Source: Irpex lacteus (lineage: Eukaryota > Basidiomycota > Agaricomycetes > Polyporales > Irpicaceae). From it: a DNA stretch of 64,000 nt. Made by a program: the position numbers and the translations under genes. Positions 639 through 13,929 of this stretch are shown piece by piece; the stretch's first letter is position 1; the number at the start of each line of letters is the position of its first letter. The notes beneath the pieces were generated by a model that made no database searches, was not told where the DNA came from, and was given only the letters and a program-made list of their open reading frames with translations. The stretch is taken from contig MQVO02000059.1 in assembly GCA_001986395.2 (NCBI GenBank), positions 39,985 through 103,984 on the forward strand. The letters are read 5' to 3'.

Positions 639-1958
639 TGAGACACCAAGCCGCGCTCAGACAAAGGACAAACCTACCAAACCACCTAACCCCAATAGAG
701 GAGCGGTAACGTGGTTCGGCCGAGAGCGAGGGGGTGTACGAGAAATGCGAGGGCCTCTGAGTCCCAAGCCTGACCGACGACGCCGCAACACTAGGTATAG
801 ATATCCGTCCGACCCTAAGACAAGCTTAAGGGAAGTGCAACACTGAGTGAGCCGAGGCCGAGCAACTGGACGATCAACAGCAGGGCCGAGCAGCAAGAGC
901 TACTCGTATACGTCCTACTAATACTCGTGCAACACCGCCTGCAACGCAGCAAGACCTTGGCCGAACCTCTCGGGCAACTAATCCCGGGGTCTAAGGTAGG
1001 CCCGAGCCGAGCAAGAACGCTGTGGAAGAGGGGTAAATGGGTACGGACGCAAAGGAACGATGATAACGCAAAGAACGCAACGCAGACGCAGGATATTCGC
1101 AAGGAACGCGGAGGGACGCTGAGGGAAGTCGGACGCAGTGAAGTCAAGCTGAGAGCGCGAAGTTTGAGGGTGAACTGTGCGGGGTAGATTGCTTGTCGCT
1201 ACTCTACGCATACATGCTCTATTTATACGTGTCCGAGGCCCATGTCCATATAGGTGAGCTCATAAGTCAAACGAAACGAGAAAATGGCAAAGGTAGTGCT
1301 TCGGCCGAGAAAGGAGAATGAGTCAGATGAAGGGCCGAGCAGGTAACGAGAAATATGTCAAGGAGAGACCGATGAAACATGTTAAGGGAGGGCCGAGACA
1401 GCGGCCAGCGAGGGAGGTGACTAAGGAAACGTCCTAAGGGCGCGATAGAGTCGGGCAGGAGGAAAGAAGGGACGAATCGGATGAGGGATGAAGGGAGGTG
1501 AGAATAATAATGAACACGAAGAGAGGGAATAACGAAACTCAGCGACGTCGGGGATGCGAGCCTCAAGGCTACCAGCGCATGGGCGCAGTGCACCCGAGGA
1601 CTTGTCCGAAGGAACGCAAGGCCGAGGGGGCCGAGCAACCAATACCCAAGGTTGACGATGGGTGAGTCATGGCCGAGTGAACGGACGGGCCCTCGTGCAG
1701 GAGTCGACGCGTCGATGGACCAGGAAGGAAGGCGCGAGGGCGGGGAGTATAGGCGGGATGGATCAAAATGGTAAGGGAGTCGGGCGACCGGGTGCTGAAA
1801 GAGACGGCATTGGCCGAGGTTCGATGATGGGACCGAGGCTTCGATTACGGGCGCTCGGACGTGTCCGAGTCCACATAGGGCTGCACCCGAGGCTCCTGAG
1901 AAGTCGAAAAGAAGCTGTTAGAGTTCTGGGGGATGTGTGGCGTGTGCCCAGCGTGTCA
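639..1958 (-). repeat. 3' LTR of element A
   Basis: A 1,320-bp terminal repeat starting TGAGACACC and ending GTGTCA. It differs from the other LTR only at 1,873 (A here, G at 12,431) as far as can be read by eye. In element orientation U3 begins at 1,958 and U5 ends at 639. All open frames inside it are also present in the other copy and look non-coding. It is rich in the heptamer GGCCGAG. Confidence 0.95.
1219..1227 (-). promoter_or_regulatory. TATA box in 3' LTR of element A
   Basis: TATAAATAG on the minus strand, about 730 bp into the LTR. It is the best core-promoter candidate and implies a long U3 with R/U5 starting some 30 bp further left. Confidence 0.55.
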
Positions 1959-1974
1959 TCCTCCTCCCTACTGA
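1959..1974 (-). other. Polypurine tract of element A
   Basis: The minus strand reads AGTAGGGAGGAGGA ending flush with the 3' LTR. This is the expected place and composition for the plus-strand primer of an LTR element. A 17-bp copy of this region recurs at 4,615-4,631. Confidence 0.75.
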
Positions 1975-1976
1975 AA
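1960..1976. repeat. 17-bp direct repeat, copy next to 3' LTR
   Basis: Perfect match to 4,615-4,631. The pair brackets the antisense gene at 2,109-4,285, and the copies are 2,655 bp apart. Confidence 0.85.
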
Positions 1977-2108
1977 TCCTAAGTCGTCCCCGACTTGCCA
2001 AATGCGGCGCGGCCTTTATGCAGTGACTCGGCCTTGAGGCTGACGCATGTCGGCGCCAATACGTCTTCATCAACTCGTCCCACAACCTGCTGCGCCCCCA
2101 ACCACACC

Positions 2109-4285
2109 ATGTCGTCCACCACCATACCAACACCCAAGTCGATCACCCTGCGCAACGTTCGTGGCATCCTAGACCGCCTGAACAACGATGACGCGACCTC
2201 GGTCTTGACCGACGAGTTCGCCAGTGAGTTCCAATGGGCCATGGTAAGTAAAGCGGCCGTGGTAACCTCCACAGGACTAACGTGCGTGAACACCATAGGA
2301 GACGCTGCTAGAGGACAAGTCCGTCCTCACAGAGAACACTGCGCTCAACAGCCAGGTGATCGAGGCGATGATGTCCCTGGCCGAGCTCTTCGACGACCAC
2401 CCCAAGGACGCCACCGCTCGGCTTCGCCAGGCGTTTGAGAAGTCTGGTGCCAGCACCGAGTTCGGTCTGCCCGTGCTGGCTCCTCGAAACGACGGTGAGG
2501 AAGACGCAGAGTCGCGGAATGAAGAGGGTGAAGATGAAGGGGACGAGGAAGGCGACGAGGAGGCGGGTGAAAAGGGTAAGAGCGATGACGAAGAAGACGA
2601 GGACGAGGATGAAGACCAGGAGGGTGAAGAAGGACCAGTCGACGCCCCTGCCGAGGAGTCTTCTGACGAGTCGGTCGACGAGCAGGAGGCCAAAAAGAAG
2701 TCGTCGTCGTCTTCGTCGGCCGAGGAGTCCTCTGACGAGTCTGTCAAGATTACGGGCTCGAAGAAGGGCAAGGAGAGAGCCGAAGACAGTGAGTATGAGG
2801 ATAGCGACGAGGATGACGAGAAGATCATCAAGAAGGAGCCTGGCACCGAGACCGCCCCTGGCTCGGACGAGATGGACGTCGACGAGGAGCCCGTTGTTCC
2901 TGCAAGCCAGCCCGGGCCTGCTGCTACGACCAGGCCTCGTCCTCGGCCAGTCCCTCACCAGGTCGAACCGGCCAAGCCTGCGCCCGTGGCTGCGACCCCA
3001 GAGGTCCAGACGGCCGCGCCCGCCACCGCAGCAGTTCCTCGTCGTCGTCGTAAGCTGTACAAGTTCGTCGCAGTGGAACGCAATCTTCGGGTACGTGATG
3101 GTGCTCGTAATGGCCGAGGTCTTATGCTGACAGGTTTTGGCGTAGTGTGGTACATGCGTCGAGCACAAGATCGACGTTTGCCGCGTTCGACTCGACCACG
3201 GCGGCCAAGTCATGAGCTGCGTGACCTGCAGCCGGCGAAAGGTCCACTGCACCTACAAGCAGAACGAGGTTGACGAGAGAAGCAAGGCGGTGCTGGCCTG
3301 GATGAAGAAGAGGAAGATCGAGCTAGAGGACTTGGCGGTCGAGTCGGACCCCGAGAAGAAGAAGCCGGCCTCGAAGAAGGGTGTCAAGGGGGGCCCGAAG
3401 ACTCCTACGAAGGGGAAACGTGTGGCGAAGGCTGAGCCCGTGTCTAGTGGTGAGGAAGATACGCCCAAGGCTAAGAAGACGTTGGCCCAGCCTACTCGGT
3501 CCTCGGCCAAGGCTGCGGGCAAGGCCGCACTGCCTGCCCCTCCGCCTCGTCGGTCCACGCGTCAGAGTACCGGTACGTATTGCAGTAGCTGTGGATCATT
3601 AGCGAGCTGACAATAGTGTCCAGCGGCGAAGGCGGTCGCCCAGACCGAGGAGAAACCGGCCGCTCCTGTTACCACTCGGTCGAAGGCTCGACCCTCCATG
3701 CCTCCACCTCCTCCTCGGTCGCCCTCTCAGGCACCCGCAGACCTCTCTCCTATGGCTCCAATGCTCTCGCTGCCGTCGTATAGTCCTGCGATGGGCACCT
3801 ATCGTAGTAAGTCCAACCCACTCGTCCTACCCTGCTCGCATCGCTGACCGAGCGCAGGCCAGCTGCCTTTCGAGTCCCCGGCCATGTCCGGGCGCACTCT
3901 ATCTGGTGCCTCGTCGTTCTCTATCGGTACGTCCGCCTCGTCGGGGCTCGAGGACTTCCACCGCCTGCGGATCCAGCAAGCCGAGGGCGAGCTCCAGCAA
4001 GAGCAGCTCGGCCTTCGTGCGGCGGAGCGCCGTGTTAAGGCGGCCGAGGCCCACCTCGCTGCCTGTCGTCTCGAGTACGAAGAATGGCGAAGGGACCAGC
4101 CTGTTGTCGCGTCGTCGTCCCAGGACCCCGTCCTCGCAGCTGCCACCTCTCGCGGCCTCGCCCTCGACGACCAACCTCCACCTACGAAGCGGCTGCGTGT
4201 TGAAGTACCCAAGTCCGAGGTCGTAGATGCGAGCAAGACGAAGAGCTCGGGAATGTCGAAGAAGAAGGGAAAGGGAAAGGCGTAG
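2109..4285 (+). CDS. Antisense cargo gene in element A: acidic protein with Zn2Cys6-like cluster
   Basis: Five exons: 2109-2243, 2299-3090, 3146-3572, 3624-3806 and 3858-4285. The GT-AG introns are 51-55 nt and the product is 654 residues. Seen in order: a short N-terminal segment, a long Asp/Glu/Ser-rich tract (about residues 100-210), a six-cysteine cluster CX2CX7CX12CX2CX6C near residues 310-345, a Lys/Pro-rich stretch, and a C-terminal coiled coil rich in Leu/Glu/Arg followed by a basic tail. The cysteine pattern resembles fungal Zn2Cys6 DNA-binding clusters, but with longer spacing than Gal4. It lies inside an LTR element, opposite to gag-pol, starting 150 bp from the LTR U3 edge. Function is unknown; a nuclear DNA- or chromatin-binding role is inference. 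Frame continuity across four introns makes the gene model strong. Confidence 0.82.
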
Positions 4286-4407
4286 TGTCCGTTAGTTGTC
4301 GTCTCGGCCGAGCTCCTCTTGTACTAGTATTCCTGTGTGTCCGTTTGTTTGCCTTGTTCTGTCCTCTTGCGCGTTGTACCATAGGACGTAGACGTCCTCG
4401 CTGCTGT

Positions 4408-4413
4408 AATAAA
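4408..4413 (+). terminator. Poly(A) signal for the antisense cargo gene
   Basis: AATAAA lies 123 bp after the stop codon on the gene's strand. It suggests the cargo gene makes its own mRNA independent of the retrotransposon transcript. Confidence 0.5.
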
Positions 4414-4614
4414 TTCGCTGGTTGATGGAAAATGGAAAGGAATGTGGGAAAGAGATGTAAACGGCTACGTGTGAAAGGTCAAATCTGGTGAGTTTCGATG
4501 GTTTTGTATGTGTCCGAGGGTGTAAACGTGGAATACGGGCGAAAAATGGGAAGATAGAAGGCTCCGGGTTCTGAGCTCTCTGCTTCTCTGGGTAAGGGCC
4601 GACGTTACCGTCTC

Positions 4615-4631
4615 CCTCCTCCCTACTGAAA
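4615..4631. repeat. 17-bp direct repeat, internal polypurine-tract copy
   Basis: Same 17 bases as 1,960-1,976. On the minus strand it reads TTTCAGTAGGGAGGAGG. It sits 226 bp downstream of the pol stop, where the polypurine tract would be if the antisense gene were absent. Confidence 0.85.
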
Positions 4632-4856
4632 CAAAGAAGCCCTGTCCCCAGGGCAAGAGGTAAAAGGGTTGGCAGCCTCAGAGACGAGCTCATCATAGAC
4701 CGAAGAGGCAACCGCCTTTAAAGGCGAGTTGCGTGCGAAAAAAATAGGGTGTTGTCCGTGCGTGAGGGGAAGAATAAGAAAACAAAGTGAGAAATGCGGA
4801 AAAGATGATAAGGAGTGGAATGGCGCGAGGAAAAGAGAGAGCACCGGTGGATGAGA

Positions 4857-7800
4857 TTAGGGTTGAGGAAGGTCTTCAGCGTCGTCGTCGTGTTCGTTAA
4901 CAACGCCCGGAGGTTCGTCGAGGTCATCGTCCCCTTGAGAAGTGCTCTCGGCCAGCTCGCGCAGACGTTCAGGAGTAATATCTGCAAAGCCATCAGGTAA
5001 CGGGATAGAGCGACGGGCGAGATAAGGAACCACGCGAAAGGCGGCCACAGGTCGGTCTAGGACCGAGCCGTCGAGTTCGCAGAGTACGTAGGCACCTCCG
5101 CGGTTACGAGTGATAACGATGAGTGGGCCGAGGTAGCGAGGGCGCATTTTACGATTGAGAGCCTTCTCGATAGCGGTGTTCCGGATCAGGACCAGGGATC
5201 CTCGAGCGAAGTTGAAGTCCTTAATGGTATGAGCGTTGTCCTGCTCAAACCGTCGTGCAGCTTGTTTCCTGGACTCGACGACGTCATCGCGTAGCTTCTG
5301 CAGGTCCGACCGACGCTTCTGGAGAGCTAGGGCGCGGCGCGAGATGAGGTCGGTAGTGGTGAGAATGGAGTCGGGAGGGGGCTGCAAGTAGGTAGCTTCG
5401 ATGATGTCGAGCGGGATGATCGGATGGGTACCAGTTACTGCAAAGTACGGTGAGCAGCCCATGCGTTTGCGGACAGTGATACGCTCGGACCAGAAGACCG
5501 AGGCTGAGACCGAGGCCCACTTAGATGCGTCGCCGTCGGCCGCTTTGAAGAGAGCTTGCCGGACGTCGTAGTGTGCCCGTTCGACCTGTCCGTTGGCTCG
5601 AGAGTTGTACCCGCTGATACGAATGTGAGTGATATGATAGCGCTTAGCAAGGTACTCGATGGCAGCGATAAAGGCTCCTCCATTGTCAGAGACAATCTCT
5701 GACAGACCGCCCCATCGACAAAGAATATCCTCGAATAGCCAGTCGCCGATGGTCTTGCCAGTCTCCGTCCTTAGTGCACGGAACTCAGGATAATGCGTGA
5801 GTGAGCAGCGACCTTGGACGATATACTTGAATCCGGCCGACTTGGGTAAGTGCATAGTGTCGACGTATATTTTGGCAAAGAGAGGGGCCGGCTGCGCGAC
5901 CGTGGGAGGGATGAGGATCTGACGCTTCTGGCGAGTTTGACAAATGTGGCAGGTCCGAACGTACCACGCCACGTCAGCAATGTGGAAGGGCCACCAGAAG
6001 CGTTCCGATATCATGACGGTGGTAGCATAGACACCTCGATGCGCTGCTCGGTCATGACACTCCCGTAGGATACGGATTCGGTCGGGAGGCATGACGACTA
6101 ACTTGTGGGCACCAGACGGATCACGCTTCCAGAGCCTCCCGCCGTCGACGAAGAACTGGGTAGCGAAGCGAACGAAGGCGTGTAAAGCTTTTTCGGACAG
6201 GCCCGAGGGCGGTAGGAATGTATCGAGAAATGCTGGAATCTCGGCCAACTTGTCGTCCGCGTCCGAGGCCTTCTTCGTACGAGGTACCTGCTGGTAGTCG
6301 ACGTCCAATGGCTCCTCGGCTACGGATTGTGAGAAGGAAGAGGAAAGAGAGGGGAGCCGAGGACGGAGCTGCGCCCATATATGCATAGTGAGGAAGCAGG
6401 GACCCAACGGGTTTTCGTCTTCGTCGTCTTCAGGAGGGTCAGGGTCCCCAGGCTGAGGAGGTCGACGAGAGAGACCATCTGGACCGTGTCTCTCACCAGG
6501 GACGTGGACTAGGGTGAAGTGGAAGGTAAGGATGGCAGCGATCCAACGGTTGATGGAGGCCGAAGGCGCGAGGTCGGGATTTTGGATCATGCCTTTGATA
6601 TGCTGAGCGTCCACCTCTACGACCAAATTACGTACCCCGATGATATACAGCTTTAAGGCTTTGAGCGAGCGATAGAGACCGTAGAGTTCGAGCTTCGGCT
6701 GAGAGAACCGAGATTCACGGTCGTTGAGTGTGATCGAGCCGAAGCGAGAGTAATAGCGAACTTTCGGGTTGGTAGAGTCGCACTGAGCCAGGAAGTGACC
6801 GATCGCCAGGTATGAGGTATCGACTGCGAGGATGACAGGGGCACCGGAAGTGTAGTCGATAGCACGCAGAGCAGGTGAATCCAGGAGAGCCTGCTTGAGG
6901 TCGGCTTGCGCTCGGTCCTGATCAGGGCCCCATTCGAAGGCTGCGTCCTTTCTGGTAAGCTTGACAAGGTGGTGTGCCCGGTGAGCGAAGTTCTTGATAA
7001 AAATGCGCACAACGCCAACAGTACCCAGGAATGCGCGGACCTCAGAGAGGCTCTTGCAGGGTCCCCAGTTCCGTATGGCGCGTACACGATCCTCCTCGGG
7101 TATGCGGCCCTCGGGCGTACAGCAGGAGCCTACGACCGAGTACTTGCGGGCAAGCAAAATCGACTTCGGCCCAGAGAACGTGCCACCAACGTACCGAACT
7201 CGAGCGACGACCCTGTTAAGATTGTCGAAGTGTTCTCGAACAAATCGTCGAATGCCCGGATTCTCGGGTATCCGTTCCCAGTCGCCATTAGGTAGCCGAT
7301 ACTCGTCCTTCGGTCCTCGGACGGGTACGTCGTCGATGTAGGGGATAGTGACATGAGGAATTTCGGGTTGCAGAATGTAGGTGACGTCGTCGTGAAAGAT
7401 GGGTACGCTGTTGGTCCAGCCCATAGGTAGAGTTGTAATGCGCATGGCGCCGAATGGTGTTTGGAAGGTGGTCATATCGCGAGACGACTCGGCCAATGGC
7501 CGGTTGTCGTACCCGACGAATAGATCAAGGATCCCTCCACAGGCGCGGCCGCCAAACGTTTCGGCCAAGTGTTCAGGAAGAGGAGGAATACCAGAGTGTT
7601 GGATGGTGACCCGGTTGAGCGGTTCGAGGGAGTGCACAATCCGAAGTTTGCCAGTCTTCTTCGCCACTGGAAACCAGCGACTCCGATAGGTAGCATTCGA
7701 CGGTTCGTACACCCCGGCCTTGATTTTCTCGAGGATGATTCGGCAGCATTCGTCGTAGATGCCCGGTGGGATTGGCATGTTCCGCTCCACCCAGGGCACA

Positions 7801-8513
7801 TGAGGGACGACTGGAAATTCTACAGGTGGAAAGAAGTCAGTACGAAAACTACCACGCTCATCGTCGGTCCAAGCAAAGGCCTGGTTGTGCAAAGAAACAA
7901 AGTAATGCAGAAGGCGTCGCTCCTCCGGAAGCCAAAACGCATCGCCGTGACGGCCGTCCAGCTCCGTCATGCGATCTTGCGTGTATCGCCCAGTAGGAAC
8001 AAAATTGGGAATGTGGGCATAATCGAGAAAGGGCATGGCCGAAAGCGGGTCGCCCGAAATATTGCGTACGATGCGGTACTCTTTGGGTAGCTCCGTTTTC
8101 ACGGGGCGAACCTTCAGATGCACCGGCTTGTACTTTTTCTTCGCGCCAACGAAAATATGGCGAAGGGTATCGGGTGTGGCACCGAGGGCATGCCACATAG
8201 AAGCAGAAAAAGAGGAGACGAGGTCGAGGAGAGGAAGGGAAGATATGTGGTTTTGAAGGTTATCGTCAGAAAAGGCAGAGAGACAGAAAGAAAGAAACTG
8301 AGAGTTGATCGAGGAGAGAGGAATAGAGGGTGATTCGAAGAGAGAAAGCGAAAGGGAGACAGAGTCAATGTCCGAGACAATAGCTAGTGTGGAAGGAGAG
8401 ACAGAGTCCGTTTGTGAAGCAAGGGTCGGAGAAGAGGAATCGTCGATCGAGGAGAGTGAAAAGGTGTGGTATAAAGGATCTCCTCGAGGGGTGCTCGACT
8501 CCTCGATCCTCAA
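4857..8513 (-). CDS. Pol of element A: RT, RNase H, integrase
   Basis: 1,218 codons in one open frame. The reverse transcriptase has its first Asp near residue 330 and the box Tyr-Ile-Asp-Asp at 392-395. RNase H carboxylates are near 565, 609, 635 and 679. The integrase HHCC finger is near 820-858, and its Asp, Asp, Glu triad is near 885, 943 and 979. A long C-terminal tail is seen but no chromodomain could be recognised. There is no ATG at the start: the frame opens at TTG one base ahead of the gag stop, which fits production as a Gag-Pol fusion by -1 frameshifting. All key residues are present, so it looks functional. Confidence 0.93.
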   Translation of the reverse strand: MRIEESSTPRGDPLYHTFSLSSIDDSSSPTLASQTDSVSPSTLAIVSDIDSVSLSLSLFESPSIPLSSINSQFLSFCLSAFSDDNLQNHISSLPLLDLVSSFSASMWHALGATPDTLRHIFVGAKKKYKPVHLKVRPVKTELPKEYRIVRNISGDPLSAMPFLDYAHIPNFVPTGRYTQDRMTELDGRHGDAFWLPEERRLLHYFVSLHNQAFAWTDDERGSFRTDFFPPVEFPVVPHVPWVERNMPIPPGIYDECCRIILEKIKAGVYEPSNATYRSRWFPVAKKTGKLRIVHSLEPLNRVTIQHSGIPPLPEHLAETFGGRACGGILDLFVGYDNRPLAESSRDMTTFQTPFGAMRITTLPMGWTNSVPIFHDDVTYILQPEIPHVTIPYIDDVPVRGPKDEYRLPNGDWERIPENPGIRRFVREHFDNLNRVVARVRYVGGTFSGPKSILLARKYSVVGSCCTPEGRIPEEDRVRAIRNWGPCKSLSEVRAFLGTVGVVRIFIKNFAHRAHHLVKLTRKDAAFEWGPDQDRAQADLKQALLDSPALRAIDYTSGAPVILAVDTSYLAIGHFLAQCDSTNPKVRYYSRFGSITLNDRESRFSQPKLELYGLYRSLKALKLYIIGVRNLVVEVDAQHIKGMIQNPDLAPSASINRWIAAILTFHFTLVHVPGERHGPDGLSRRPPQPGDPDPPEDDEDENPLGPCFLTMHIWAQLRPRLPSLSSSFSQSVAEEPLDVDYQQVPRTKKASDADDKLAEIPAFLDTFLPPSGLSEKALHAFVRFATQFFVDGGRLWKRDPSGAHKLVVMPPDRIRILRECHDRAAHRGVYATTVMISERFWWPFHIADVAWYVRTCHICQTRQKRQILIPPTVAQPAPLFAKIYVDTMHLPKSAGFKYIVQGRCSLTHYPEFRALRTETGKTIGDWLFEDILCRWGGLSEIVSDNGGAFIAAIEYLAKRYHITHIRISGYNSRANGQVERAHYDVRQALFKAADGDASKWASVSASVFWSERITVRKRMGCSPYFAVTGTHPIIPLDIIEATYLQPPPDSILTTTDLISRRALALQKRRSDLQKLRDDVVESRKQAARRFEQDNAHTIKDFNFARGSLVLIRNTAIEKALNRKMRPRYLGPLIVITRNRGGAYVLCELDGSVLDRPVAAFRVVPYLARRSIPLPDGFADITPERLRELAESTSQGDDDLDEPPGVVNEHDDDAEDLPQP

Positions 8514-10774
8514 AAACCCCGTTCGGGCATCCTGAACCGAGGTCGGCCGCGGGGCAACGTAGGGATGGTGATGCTGCGACCTGTGTTCGGGCAGTGGAGT
8601 TCGATAGTCTGGTCCTCGTTCTTGTAGTTGCGGACGACCGACGCGGCCAGAACGTCGAAAGGGCGTCCAAGCAGGATATCGTATGCAGCTTCGCGAATGA
8701 CGTGGACTTGGAGGTAGAAGATCATCCCTCCAATCGCGAAAGGAACGTTTCGGGCCAGGCCGAGAGAACGGTCAACGCCTCCATTTGCGCTCTGCATGTG
8801 CAAGACTACGCTGGGGTCGTAGGACAGCCCTAACTCATGACAGACTGCCTCGGAGCAAGCTACGATTTGGCACCCCGGGTCGAGGATGCAGTCGACCTCC
8901 TCTTGCTCGGCCACAAGAGCTCGGACGGTGCGCAATGAGCTCGACTCGCTTGCAACCTTCACCGGCCGAGGTTCTTCGCCTGGGGCTAGTGAGCGAAGAT
9001 AGGCCTCGTAAGGGTCGGTAATTCGATAGACTCCCCGTGGTAAGTCACCCTGCTGCGTGAGCACCTCAGGACTCGGTAGGCGCACCTCGTCGGCATCGTT
9101 GTAGAAGGCGGCCGACGGCAACGAGCTTGGTTGGGCAGGGGTGCGTTTGGGGGTGACGAGGGATCGAAGGTTCGTGCGGACGTCAGGAGAGATAGCGAGG
9201 AGTTCTTCGGCGGTGATGAGGAAGCTGTTCTGCTTGAGAGCTCGGTCCAACACTACTTCGGCCGTCTTTGCGTTTTCGACGGGAGCAGCAGTACGAAAGG
9301 CTGGTTCACGAGTGGTTGGCTTAGGCGGTGCCGCAACGTTACGGGAGGACGGAGGAAGGTATGTGGCATCCTTCACACTCGCCAATGGGTGCTCAGGCTG
9401 ACCTTGCGATGGCTCTACTCGGTCCTCGGATTGTACGGGTTGTGGTACTGTACGTGTGGTGGCCGAGGGTTGTGATGGCTCGGCCGAGGAGTCGGAAGGC
9501 GCAGGCGGGGCTGGAGTTCGTGATGTGGGCGCTGGGGTAGTAGGGCGACGGCGATATTTGTTGGATAAAGGAGGAACGTCGACTTCGACCCGGCCCCGCT
9601 TCAGTGCGTAGATTTCCTGCTCCAGAGCAAGAATACGCTCTTCCTGGTCCCGTTGGTAAACGTAAGAAGACGCCTGGCCGTCGTAAGTGGTACCCCCGAC
9701 GAGCTCAACTAGCATAGACTCGGTTGGCTCAAAGTCTGGGGTTACATCGCTATACGACAGTGTCCCGGCTGCACGCTGGCCGGGGTTACGACGATGCCAC
9801 TCATTGACTCGGTCGCGCATGTTCTCACCAGGTATGCTCCGAGGGACGAATATCCCAGTAGGCAAGACTACCTTGTTCTCGGCATTCCTCCGAATTAACC
9901 CGGCCGCTATATCGGCAGCAACCTTTTCGCAGTTGTTGACGCGACAGTCAGGGCCACCGCAATAGTGACACTTGGCTGATGCCTGCGAGGAAGGTCCACT
10001 GGAAGGTGGCCGAGGGACGGAAGGAGGTGCTGCACCAGGGTTAAGACGTCCGAGATACTCGAGTAGTTTAGCGAAGTCTTCGACCTTGATGCTCGGAGAG
10101 GCGGCGGAAGGCGATGATGTAGAGGAAGAAGTGGATGCAGAGGGCTCGAGCGGGACTGTGGCCGAGGTGGGGGCCGACAAGGCGGTCGACGTCCCTTGTA
10201 GATGGAACCTCATGGCCTCGTCCAACGCAGCCATGCTGTAGCCGTCTCCGGGGTGAACATCAGGGTTCTTGACCTGCAGGCGAGTTGCAAGCGAAGAGAA
10301 CTGGGGGCCTATAGCGTCCTGGCACCAGTGGTCTTGGTCGATGACCGAGATCTTCTTCTTAGTTATCAGCCAGGCGGACTGGGTACGGTAGTTACGGAAG
10401 AATTCGGCCCAGTCACCGATCGTCTTGAAACCATTGGTACGCCACTGACGGACGTAGTCGAGTAGACCCTGACGAGAGTACTTGACCGAGGCATCTGCCC
10501 CAGGGTAGAGCTGAAACACCTCGTCTTTCCAGTCATCGAAGGTCTTTCTTGCCTCGTCATAACTGGGGAGTGCTGCCCATTGATCCTCAATCTCGACAGG
10601 AACGTACCGAACGCCATAAGCCTTCTTTTCGGCCTCGTCGACGATTTGTGCGCGATGAAGGAGATCGCCGAGTTCCTGGAAATAACGGGCGAGCATCCGA
10701 GGCTTACGAGGATCGAATGTGGGCGCATGGTTGTCCCGGTTGAGGGGCATGGGGACTGCGTGTTGTTGTGCCAT
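8510..10774 (-). CDS. Gag-protease of element A
   Basis: 754 residues from the ATG at 10,774. The N-terminal half is a capsid-like helical region. A zinc knuckle at about 269-282 has the spacing CX2CX4CX4C, that is, Cys where His is usual. A Pro/Ser-rich linker leads to a retropepsin-like domain with Asp-Pro-Gly at about 632-634 and the later Ile-Leu-Leu-Gly-Arg-Pro motif near 700. The ORF ends at a -1 slip site leading into pol. The same reading frame is open and conserved with element B for about 120 codons upstream of this ATG, so the true N-terminus may be longer. Confidence 0.9.
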   Translation of the reverse strand: MAQQHAVPMPLNRDNHAPTFDPRKPRMLARYFQELGDLLHRAQIVDEAEKKAYGVRYVPVEIEDQWAALPSYDEARKTFDDWKDEVFQLYPGADASVKYSRQGLLDYVRQWRTNGFKTIGDWAEFFRNYRTQSAWLITKKKISVIDQDHWCQDAIGPQFSSLATRLQVKNPDVHPGDGYSMAALDEAMRFHLQGTSTALSAPTSATVPLEPSASTSSSTSSPSAASPSIKVEDFAKLLEYLGRLNPGAAPPSVPRPPSSGPSSQASAKCHYCGGPDCRVNNCEKVAADIAAGLIRRNAENKVVLPTGIFVPRSIPGENMRDRVNEWHRRNPGQRAAGTLSYSDVTPDFEPTESMLVELVGGTTYDGQASSYVYQRDQEERILALEQEIYALKRGRVEVDVPPLSNKYRRRPTTPAPTSRTPAPPAPSDSSAEPSQPSATTRTVPQPVQSEDRVEPSQGQPEHPLASVKDATYLPPSSRNVAAPPKPTTREPAFRTAAPVENAKTAEVVLDRALKQNSFLITAEELLAISPDVRTNLRSLVTPKRTPAQPSSLPSAAFYNDADEVRLPSPEVLTQQGDLPRGVYRITDPYEAYLRSLAPGEEPRPVKVASESSSLRTVRALVAEQEEVDCILDPGCQIVACSEAVCHELGLSYDPSVVLHMQSANGGVDRSLGLARNVPFAIGGMIFYLQVHVIREAAYDILLGRPFDVLAASVVRNYKNEDQTIELHCPNTGRSITIPTLPRGRPRFRMPERGF
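8513..8519 (-). promoter_or_regulatory. -1 ribosomal frameshift site between gag-pro and pol
   Basis: The minus strand reads CGG GGT TTT TGA at the end of gag. The heptamer G GGT TTT matches the canonical X XXY YYZ form in the gag frame, and a one-base backward slip enters the pol frame exactly. The gag stop follows immediately. A downstream pseudoknot was not tested. Confidence 0.7.
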
Positions 10775-11166
10775 TTGTGTTCGAAGATGTTGGTTCTCGG
10801 CTTCGTAGATGTCGACGATTTCGAGAAGTCGTTGAGTGTGGGATTCGCGGGCAAGGATATAATCAAGAGGAATGGGTTCAGGGGGTGGCTGTGATTCGTT
10901 GTCCGACTGGTCGGATGGGTTTGATAAGGATGAGGATTTTTCGGTCGGCTCCGAGAATTCTTCGGCCGATAGGTACGCTGATTCTTCTGCGCCTACGCTA
11001 GGTGTACGGTGACGTGTGTTCCTTGGTTTGCGCCAAAGAGTGTCGGGATCGGTGAGCGGAGCAGCAACTGGGGCACCTCGACTCCGAGTGTGCCTAGAAG
11101 ATCCTGCCGTGGAACTCGTGATTGGAAGTGGTATTGTTGTAACAGAGGTCAGAACCCGGTGATATC
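10775..11166 (-). other. Conserved open extension upstream of gag ATG, no ATG of its own
   Basis: In frame with gag, this stretch is open back to a TGA at about 11,167 yet contains no in-frame ATG. Its translation matches element B (bases 1-638) at several blocks, including Thr-Arg-Ser-Arg-Gly and Asp-Pro-Asp-Thr-Leu followed by a basic run. Conservation of protein sequence in two diverged elements argues it is translated. That could be from a non-AUG codon or after leader splicing. Confidence 0.55.
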
Positions 11167-11196: not shown

Positions 11197-12516
11197 TGAG
11201 ACACCAAGCCGCGCTCAGACAAAGGACAAACCTACCAAACCACCTAACCCCAATAGAGGAGCGGTAACGTGGTTCGGCCGAGAGCGAGGGGGTGTACGAG
11301 AAATGCGAGGGCCTCTGAGTCCCAAGCCTGACCGACGACGCCGCAACACTAGGTATAGATATCCGTCCGACCCTAAGACAAGCTTAAGGGAAGTGCAACA
11401 CTGAGTGAGCCGAGGCCGAGCAACTGGACGATCAACAGCAGGGCCGAGCAGCAAGAGCTACTCGTATACGTCCTACTAATACTCGTGCAACACCGCCTGC
11501 AACGCAGCAAGACCTTGGCCGAACCTCTCGGGCAACTAATCCCGGGGTCTAAGGTAGGCCCGAGCCGAGCAAGAACGCTGTGGAAGAGGGGTAAATGGGT
11601 ACGGACGCAAAGGAACGATGATAACGCAAAGAACGCAACGCAGACGCAGGATATTCGCAAGGAACGCGGAGGGACGCTGAGGGAAGTCGGACGCAGTGAA
11701 GTCAAGCTGAGAGCGCGAAGTTTGAGGGTGAACTGTGCGGGGTAGATTGCTTGTCGCTACTCTACGCATACATGCTCTATTTATACGTGTCCGAGGCCCA
11801 TGTCCATATAGGTGAGCTCATAAGTCAAACGAAACGAGAAAATGGCAAAGGTAGTGCTTCGGCCGAGAAAGGAGAATGAGTCAGATGAAGGGCCGAGCAG
11901 GTAACGAGAAATATGTCAAGGAGAGACCGATGAAACATGTTAAGGGAGGGCCGAGACAGCGGCCAGCGAGGGAGGTGACTAAGGAAACGTCCTAAGGGCG
12001 CGATAGAGTCGGGCAGGAGGAAAGAAGGGACGAATCGGATGAGGGATGAAGGGAGGTGAGAATAATAATGAACACGAAGAGAGGGAATAACGAAACTCAG
12101 CGACGTCGGGGATGCGAGCCTCAAGGCTACCAGCGCATGGGCGCAGTGCACCCGAGGACTTGTCCGAAGGAACGCAAGGCCGAGGGGGCCGAGCAACCAA
12201 TACCCAAGGTTGACGATGGGTGAGTCATGGCCGAGTGAACGGACGGGCCCTCGTGCAGGAGTCGACGCGTCGATGGACCAGGAAGGAAGGCGCGAGGGCG
12301 GGGAGTATAGGCGGGATGGATCAAAATGGTAAGGGAGTCGGGCGACCGGGTGCTGAAAGAGACGGCATTGGCCGAGGTTCGATGATGGGACCGAGGCTTC
12401 GATTACGGGCGCTCGGACGTGTCCGAGTCCGCATAGGGCTGCACCCGAGGCTCCTGAGAAGTCGAAAAGAAGCTGTTAGAGTTCTGGGGGATGTGTGGCG
12501 TGTGCCCAGCGTGTCA
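11197..12516 (-). repeat. 5' LTR of element A
   Basis: Second copy of the 1,320-bp repeat. It carries the TATAAATAG box at 11,777-11,785 and drives gag-pol leftwards. Confidence 0.95.
11777..11785 (-). promoter_or_regulatory. TATA box of 5' LTR, element A
   Basis: TATAAATAG on the minus strand, about 1.0 kb upstream of the gag ATG. It is the likely core promoter for the genomic RNA. Confidence 0.55.
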
Positions 12517-12520
12517 GCGG
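12517..12520. repeat. Right target-site duplication of element A (GCGG)
   Basis: Partner of the duplication at 635-638. The fifth base differs on each side, so the duplication is 4 bp rather than 5. Confidence 0.8.
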
Positions 12521-12602
12521 AACTCGATGATTGGCGTGGAATTTTTAACGAAAGTCAGATCTCGGAGATGTCAAGAGAGACCCCTCGCGGTGGGCTCCAA
12601 AA
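12521..12602 (-). other. Gag leader of element B, continuation after the insertion
   Basis: Aligns with 11,115-11,196 of element A: the upstream gag frame, then a nearly identical leader with the primer-binding-site candidate at 12,583-12,599. Together with 1-638 it reconstructs the pre-insertion site. Confidence 0.8.
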
Positions 12603-13929
12603 TGAGACACCAAGCCGCGCTCGGATAAGAGACAAGAACCTACAGACCACCTAACCCCGGAACGGAGCGATAACGTGGCCTGCGATGAGCGAGGGAGTGT
12701 GTAGTGGTGCGAGGGTCTCTGAGTCCCAAGACTGACTAACCAACAACCAACGCCGCAACGCCGAGGTAGTCAATCCGAACTCAACACTAGGTCAAGTGTG
12801 GTTGCTAGAGACGGAACCGGAACAACGATCGTGACACACACAGCAGGGCCTTCCGTCCGTAGACAGAAGTATACGTCCTACTAAGACTGGTCGCAACCAC
12901 GCACAAGCACCAAGAAACCACGGAAGACTCTAGCACAATCCGTTGGTACAACGGAACTACAGGATCCGGGGAGAAGGGGGAACGGAACGCAGACCGTACG
13001 CACGGATCGGACGCACGGGAACGGAACACGCAAAGTCGCAGAGGAAACGCAGTAACGCAGTCGCAGTCGCAGTCGCAAACGCAGTATAACGCAGTCGTAG
13101 TGAACGCAGAGTCGCAAAGTCGCAATAAGGGAGTTTTTGGTAGGGAGAGTTTTAGAGGTTGTGAAGGAGTTCCGGACGCGAGTTTGAGGGGTAAACTGTA
13201 GCGAGTGGATTTCTTGTCTCTATCCTACGAGTACAGGCCTCTTTATATACGGTAGAGCGTCCATAAGCAAAATCGAACTTAGAGAAATATTGTCCGTGGG
13301 TGACTAAGCGAGTGTAAAGAGAAATGACACGATCCGTGCCAAGAAACGAGTCAGAGGATAAAATATAGCATGAAACAGGTACGTCGGGGAGAGACGGAAA
13401 GGATAGTGCAGCGCGGAACGCGGGCATGGACGAATGGGAAGCGGGGAAAATAAAGAATCAGGCGAGGAAGAGGGTAACAGCGAATGGGAGGACAAGAGTA
13501 GCGGGCGCCAAGACAGGAGGTGGAGCAGTGGTCATATGGTCCAAAGGGGCAGTCGTCGGGAGTTGCGAACACGAGGCTGGGGGCGCTAGCAACCAATTTG
13601 ACAGGCAGCTATTCTGGTCCGTCCGATAACGCCGAAGAGAGTCGTCCGTCGATCAAACGGGGGCGAGGCGTCGGTCGTCCGAGAGGAAAGCACATGGTCG
13701 TCCGTGGTTGCCAGGGTCCCGTCGTTAATTTGAAGATCCGCGACGAGTAGAGCGATCCGAGGGGTCACGAGGAAGGGATGAGGGTACAGACAGACGTTCC
13801 GTGACGACAGAGTTCCGTGGTTCGAAGGGTTCCGCGACGGACGTATGCGAGGTTCCGTGATGACGACGGATCGAGCGGAAAATGCCGATTTCAGGAGTCT
13901 GGAACGTGCAGCCGTTCAGCCACGTGTCA
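12603..13929 (-). repeat. 5' LTR of outer Ty3 element B
   Basis: About 1,327 bp, starting TGAGACACC and ending GTGTCA like the LTRs of element A. Internal sequence is similar but diverged, with indels. A TATATAAAG box lies on the minus strand near 13,242. Beyond 13,929 the DIRS recombinase coding sequence starts abruptly, so this is the outer boundary of element B. The other LTR is outside the window. Confidence 0.88.
13038..13122. repeat. Degenerate CGCAGT / AACGCAGTCG tandem repeat in LTR B
   Basis: Short units such as gcagtc and aacgcagt recur about ten times. Element A's LTR has only a faint counterpart (gcaaagaacgcaacgcag), so the array expanded in this lineage. Confidence 0.6.

Follow-up and report, generated by a model that had tools for sequence, protein, structure and literature searches.

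A multi-intron antisense gene located between pol and the 3' long terminal repeat of a Ty3-type retrotransposon lineage in Irpex lacteus, a candidate regulator of its own element

Introduction

Retrotransposition normally removes introns, and the locus described here raises the question of how a retrotransposon can carry a gene with four of them and what that gene might do for it. The locus lies in a stretch of 64,000 nucleotides from the basidiomycete Irpex lacteus (assembly GCA_001986395.2, contig MQVO02000059.1, positions 39,985 to 103,984 of the forward strand; C155:39985-103984 in our contig numbering), which we refer to as the window. Element A, a young minus-strand retrotransposon of the Ty3 type, carries a five-exon gene in antisense orientation (2109–4285, 654 amino acids) between pol, which ends at 4857, and its 3' long terminal repeat (LTR). 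An initial annotation, made from the sequence alone, had proposed this gene, and we compared it with related copies in the genome (44.3 Mb in 317 contigs). We consider it probable (roughly 0.6) that this spliced antisense accessory gene of a Ty3 lineage encodes a nuclear protein that regulates expression of the element in trans.

Results

Removal of the four introns proposed in the initial annotation left an open frame of 654 residues ending at 4285, and the gene has its own ATG at 2109 and a possible poly(A) signal, AATAAA, at 4408–4413, as had been claimed. All parts of the gene lie on the plus strand. Exon 1 (2109–2243) holds the ATG, and its open frame is kept in the copies; it is followed by intron 1 (2244–2298, GTAAGT..TAG, phase 0) and by exon 2 (2299–3090), which encodes the acidic tract that had also been predicted (residues 110–246, 45% Asp/Glu). 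Intron 2 (3091–3145, GTACGT..TAG, phase 0), which is 55 nt long in the window copy and 56 nt in the copies on C15 and C255, stands directly before the first cysteine of a cluster that is encoded, together with a basic region, by exon 3 (3146–3572). Introns 3 (3573–3623) and 4 (3807–3857), both in phase 1, enclose exon 4 (3624–3806), which is open in frame, and exon 5 (3858–4285) encodes a predicted 53-residue helix and the basic patches PPPTKRLR and KKKGKGKA before the stop. With a splice grammar of GTRNGT donors, CTRAY branch sites, YAG acceptors and introns of 45–70 nt, the longest spliced open reading frame (ORF) in 1977–4614 was 654 residues on the plus strand and 301 on the minus strand. 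Forty dinucleotide shuffles gave at most 207 residues, and 24 control stretches, taken from both strands at 12 places in the window, gave at most 466, although some of them may contain genuine genes. The grammar was composed after these introns had been seen, and the search is therefore a plausibility test; the selection test described below is independent of it.

A DNA search of the genome found the gene at five family-A places (C155, C1, C15, C255 and C241), and pol, at 96% identity or more, was found at the same five; every full A copy that came to light thus carries the gene. The clean empty site in other copies that would have pointed to a one-off insertion, a possibility raised in the initial annotation, was thus not encountered. 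The five places are probably four copies, with C15 and C241 as two contig ends of one insertion: their LTRs have no mismatches, the gene pieces have no mismatches and 14 gap positions, the pol pieces have 4 mismatches and 16 gap positions in 4584, and TCGT stands at both outer sides. Alternatively, C15 and C241 could be two alleles. The end of C15 and the start of C241 overlap with gap-type differences, which are typical of unpolished contig ends. A full gene frame is present in C155, C1, C15 and C255 (four of the five places), and among these four genes the exons differ by an indel of 18 nt, a multiple of three, and the introns by a sole indel of 1 nt. The LTR pairs differ at 1 of 1320 positions in C155, 0 of 1320 in C255 and 3 of 1315 in C1, and pol is free of stops in three copies; by these measures the A elements look young and autonomous. 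A solo LTR with CCGC at each side was also noted, on C213.

A diverged spliced antisense gene lies between pol and the 3' LTR in all five copies of a second family, B, whose pol is 74–76% identical to that of A at the DNA level and is split into three separated pieces in the copy on C185. The family-B frames have 544, 544, 544, 546 and 546 codons and three introns, and intron 2 stands directly before the first cysteine, in phase 0, in A and B alike. Both proteins have the same order of parts, namely an N-terminal part, an acidic tract, a six-cysteine cluster and a basic, proline-rich part, then a C-terminal helix or coiled-coil-like part and a basic tail. Overall they are about 32% identical and align poorly; the six cysteines align when this short region is aligned alone.

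The antisense gene is under purifying selection at the protein level in both families. The ratio of nonsynonymous to synonymous substitution rates (dN/dS), counted without C241, was 0.123–0.227 in the 6 A pairs and 0.138–0.177 in the 10 B pairs (Fisher p of at most 0.015), not near 1, the value that the initial annotation had taken to speak against a functional gene. Variable sites at codon positions 1, 2 and 3 numbered 22, 20 and 98 in A and 55, 43 and 197 in B. The two other plus-strand frames contain stops and gave 0.94–2.37 (A) and 1.03–2.76 (B), and two of the three minus-strand frames gave 0.77–3.37, with one or two A values undefined. The interiors of the introns showed greater divergence than the exons in all 6 A pairs and in 7 of the 10 B pairs. 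In pol, dN/dS was 0.047–0.054 with no stops in the three copies compared (C15, being partial, was omitted), which indicates that constraint on the antisense gene, though present, is weaker than on pol. These data bear on a reading in which the antisense RNA itself acts, through double-stranded RNA or by interfering with transcription of the sense strand, the reading frame being of no consequence. Such regulation is discussed for regions of this kind in the available part of PMC7264820, but the selection on a spliced protein frame in two families makes this explanation very improbable here.

The cysteines of protein A (Cys-310, Cys-313, Cys-321, Cys-334, Cys-337 and Cys-344) form the pattern CX2CX7CX12CX2CX6C, and those of protein B form CX2CX7CX11CX2CX6C. 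The spacing of Zn2Cys6 clusters is CX2CX6CX5-12CX2CX6-8C, and neither protein conforms to it, the first loop being one residue too long in both. The Zn2Cys6-like cluster of the initial annotation thus holds as a cysteine pattern but not as a Pfam domain: PF00172, the Zn2Cys6 fungal transcription factor family, was matched by neither protein. Protein B had weak, non-zinc matches only in Pfam, and no bZIP match was obtained there. A helix is predicted at about residues 539–591 (26–78 of a 141-residue fragment), with blocks of predicted local distance difference test scores (pLDDT) of 91–97, and protein B has the basic patch PKPKRARK. As predicted from sequence, the acidic tract, cysteine cluster, basic patches and long helix together have the architecture of a DNA-binding regulator. 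An acidic tract and basic patches would also suit a chromatin-associated protein, and the product might counteract silencing, keeping the element or the host cell permissive without regulating the LTR directly; Pfam shows no domain of known chromatin function, and we regard this as quite unlikely.

In a search of 5.8 billion proteins with the whole of protein A, 7991 candidates were scored and none was a homologue at an E-value of 1e-3 or better; its cysteine region gave 163 candidates, all of them beyond a threshold of E 10. The same database returned 1594 matches to pol, the best at 83% identity, those listed including proteins of Rhodonia placenta and Mycena chlorophos. The absence of matches to protein A, although fungal relatives of pol are present, points to fast divergence or to missing gene models. 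Viral contigs queried with pol and with exon 3 gave 16 and 229 pattern matches and no relative.

The spliced structure, separate leader and poly(A) signal resemble those of a normal fungal gene, as would be expected if a host transcription factor gene had been taken up antisense as cargo and possibly still served the host. However, genome searches with the gene DNA and with both proteins found no paralogue outside the element copies, although such similarity searches leave room for an old, very diverged source gene, and the gene occupies the same position, between two polypurine tracts, in two diverged families. What remained were weak low-complexity matches at C1:1178920 (E 4e-9, DNA), C313 (E 0.007), C135 (E 0.98) and C6 (E 1.2), and the first of these falls in a host gene that contains a repeat of acidic codons. 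We therefore regard capture of a host gene as unlikely. The initial annotation had left open whether the gene serves the element or was captured from the host; with no host paralogue found, the former is favored.

Two polypurine tracts (PPTs) bracket the gene. PPT1, the 3' PPT beside the 3' LTR (1960–1976, minus strand), is an exact match to CCTCCTCCCTACTGAAA, and PPT2 (4615–4631, minus strand) is identical to it; with up to two mismatches allowed, this 17-base sequence occurs twice in the window against 0.01 expected by chance. The interval from PPT1 to PPT2 is the gene's cassette, and a pair of identical PPTs brackets the gene in each of the five B copies and at the four A places with full coverage. 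A hairpin precedes each of these PPTs on the element's sense strand, with a GGGA loop on that strand. The hairpin beside PPT1 (1981–1996, minus strand) has a 6-bp stem in four A copies and a different complementary 7-bp stem in five B copies, whereas the stem of the hairpin beside PPT2 (4639–4654, minus strand) is identical in all nine; the stems of A-PPT1, B-PPT1 and PPT2 thus differ but remain complementary, in a comparison made without a shuffle control. The 14-base PPT core has 27 matches in the genome and its reversed control none; 9 belong to A, 10 to B, 5 to C163, C171 and C170, and 2 to C16 and C38. The last, C296:1688989, lies within an ordinary gene and was rejected as a chance match.

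The copies differ in how their segments group. Between the ATG and PPT2 (2109–4614), 129 informative sites group C155 with C1 and 36 group it with C255, whereas in the 3' LTR the counts are 29 and 122, and from PPT2 to the pol end 1 and 9. The gag region likewise groups C155 with C1, and pol is mostly mixed. The LTR, gene and gag of C155 thus group with different partners, which indicates that A elements are mosaics generally, and recombination borders near both PPTs are no more than suggestive. One might go further and regard the PPT1–PPT2 segment as an exchangeable accessory module of the Ty3 lineage, in which elements would carry, swap and evolve an intron-containing regulator, the twin PPT-hairpins would prime plus-strand synthesis on both flanks of the gene, and the regulator would direct both transcription and insertion at CpG; taken as a whole, we consider this rather improbable.

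At the places examined, the gene is confined to this lineage. A distant Ty3 family with about 40–50% pol protein identity was checked at one place, C58:89946, where pol ends near L073:2473 and the LTR occupies L073:1236–2304; the approximately 170 bp between them leave no room for such a gene. Two plus-strand ORFs at this place (131 and 122 residues) were rejected because they lie outside the element, repeat copies placing the LTR by the pol end. PPT pairs at C163 and C171 had suggested a third gene-bearing family, but the element on C171 turned out to be gag-only and arranged in tandem. The gag-only elements on C171 and C170, the latter another copy of the former, have neither pol nor the antisense gene; in C171 a second PPT-like tract lies about 55 bases from the first with no gene between them, and a GGGA-loop hairpin is not the best fold of this tract. 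C171 (L072) is a tandem LTR-gag-LTR array, and both it and C170 (L074) resemble the rest of the lineage in LTR start, PPT and insertion preference. This distribution fits, but does not prove, an element-specific protein able to act in trans.

All 16 readable LTR left flanks (L009–L015, L020–L035 and the window) have the form NCGN, and CG makes up 7.1% of the dinucleotides of the window. Matching 4-bp duplications were found for 8 of the 16 LTRs, one of them across two contigs; B40 was out of reach of this check, L029–L035 were covered on the left side only, and the flanks of B155 are unmatched (TCGC and CCGG). L036 had no LTR-start match. The uniform flanks would accord with a protein that targets or tethers integration, for example by steering insertion to CpG-containing sites. 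However, NCGN also flanks the LTRs of L029–L035, which belong to related families with gene content that was unexamined, CpG recognition may reside in the integrase, and nothing ties the protein to integration; a targeting role seems unlikely.

The order of parts in element A, with LTRs, target duplication, PPT, gag-protease and reverse transcriptase-RNase H-integrase, fits a Ty3-type element (Metaviridae). Its 3' LTR (639–1958, minus strand; the corrected boundary is 1958) and 5' LTR (11197–12516, minus strand) both have TG..CA ends and differ by 1 mismatch in 1320 (99.9% identity), and GCGG is present outside both (635–638 and 12517–12520), so that the matching LTRs and target-site duplication first described are borne out. 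The gag-protease frame (8510–11164, minus strand, stop to stop) has a protease match slightly under the Pfam cut-off. The pol frame (4857–8771, minus strand), a stop-to-stop ORF that overlaps gag, exceeds the cut-offs for RNase H and the integrase zinc-binding domain and has a reverse transcriptase match under the cut-off; no chromodomain match was obtained in Pfam at E up to 5. Element A is nested in a related family-B element, whose LTR resumes at 12603 (flanks 12517–12736 and left of 635); the antisense gene of this B element maps beyond the window, at C155:32205-33998.

Discussion

The antisense gene looks like a regular component of its element rather than a chance passenger. We infer its transcription and splicing, and the nuclear entry, DNA binding and regulatory effect of its product, from sequence features. 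In the mechanism that we favor, a gene lying antisense in the interval from pol to the 3' LTR, with a PPT-hairpin module on either side, would keep its introns through retrotransposition because the genomic RNA would hold them as their reverse complement, which is unspliceable. The protein would enter the nucleus, bind DNA as a dimer, and act in trans on the transcription or chromatin of the element, much as HBZ of human T-cell leukemia virus type 1 (HTLV-1) acts on the provirus. Antisense placement would thereby offer a parasite copied through RNA a simple route to a host-style, separately regulated gene of its own.

Several observations weigh against this reading. The gene frame of C241 is broken by single-base indels; because C241 and C15 resemble contig ends of one insertion, C241 was not scored as a decayed copy. 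In B52 the intron 1 donor is CTAAGT instead of GTAAGT, and this intron may fail to splice. A full-length alignment of the A and B proteins misplaced the first three cysteines, and the two proteins, being too diverged, fail to find each other by search; their homology therefore rests on position, architecture and intron placement. Low dN/dS was also obtained for the mirror frame on the minus strand (0.15–0.25 in A, 0.22–0.29 in B), which is interrupted by 5 stops in A and 12 in B; this frame shares its third positions with the gene, which accounts for the low values. Protein A matches no Pfam family at E up to 5, and the structure model of its cysteine region is poor (mean pLDDT 51.5). The best match of a profile of this region, at E 2.6e-4, is to RING chains of MDM2, 14 of which match at E 0.02 or better, and zinc-cluster activators are absent among the 23 PDB matches listed. 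The RING fold has further zinc ligands; as the match spans 30 residues and those ligands are absent, we take the resemblance as probably due to chance.

In plants, LTR elements with an antisense additional ORF of the class aORF-3R include maize Grande (gene23), rice RIRE2, Retand (TRP28) and PvRetro13; the Grande antisense protein is nuclear and has its own promoter, and TRP28 is predicted to bind DNA (available portions of PMC7264820 and PMC11963269). The gene described here shares with this class its placement between pol and the 3' LTR opposite gag-pol, its presence (5 of 5 A places and 5 of 5 B copies) and its protein conservation (dN/dS below 0.23 in 16 of 16 pairs). It encodes a different protein, and neither paper, in its available portion, describes an antisense gene with introns; in PMC11963269 the term "intron" does not appear. 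In fungi, the brtn gene of Boty/BcGypsy1 from Botrytis cinerea is an antisense additional gene of a Ty3-type element (PMC7264820 and PMC8365987, in part), as is the gene of element A; brtn (Zhao et al. 2011) is known here by mention and title only. The available text of two fungal surveys mentions no antisense gene (PMC3248453, PMC3411680), and in the open-access literature, with subscription journals and Repbase entries outside its scope, no spliced antisense gene in fungal elements appeared among the entries listed. Because of brtn, the novelty is narrowed to the spliced, zinc-cluster-like form of the gene, of which the initial annotation knew no case in fungi; as far as we searched, three features are new, namely the presence of several introns, the zinc-cluster-like protein and the bracket of twin PPTs.

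Extra PPTs are described in Sireviruses, Athila4, Calypso and Ty1, and env-bearing elements of the Ty3 type have one between pol and the LTR (PMC2829016, in part). Element A is unlike these in that its PPTs bracket an antisense gene and a GGGA-loop hairpin stands at each, and this bracket offers a concrete hypothesis for how a cassette might be retained or exchanged. What antisense accessory genes do for LTR elements has been an open question since Grande and HBZ, and two diverged families with several young copies make it testable in a fungus. HBZ, which is antisense near the 3' LTR, spliced and nuclear, combines an activation domain with a dimerization helix and regulates the provirus (PMC3185765, in part). 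The gene of element A is similar to it in position and predicted splicing; whereas HBZ is a retroviral bZIP protein with exon 1 in the LTR, the element A gene encodes a six-cysteine cluster and has its ATG between PPT1 and the gene body.
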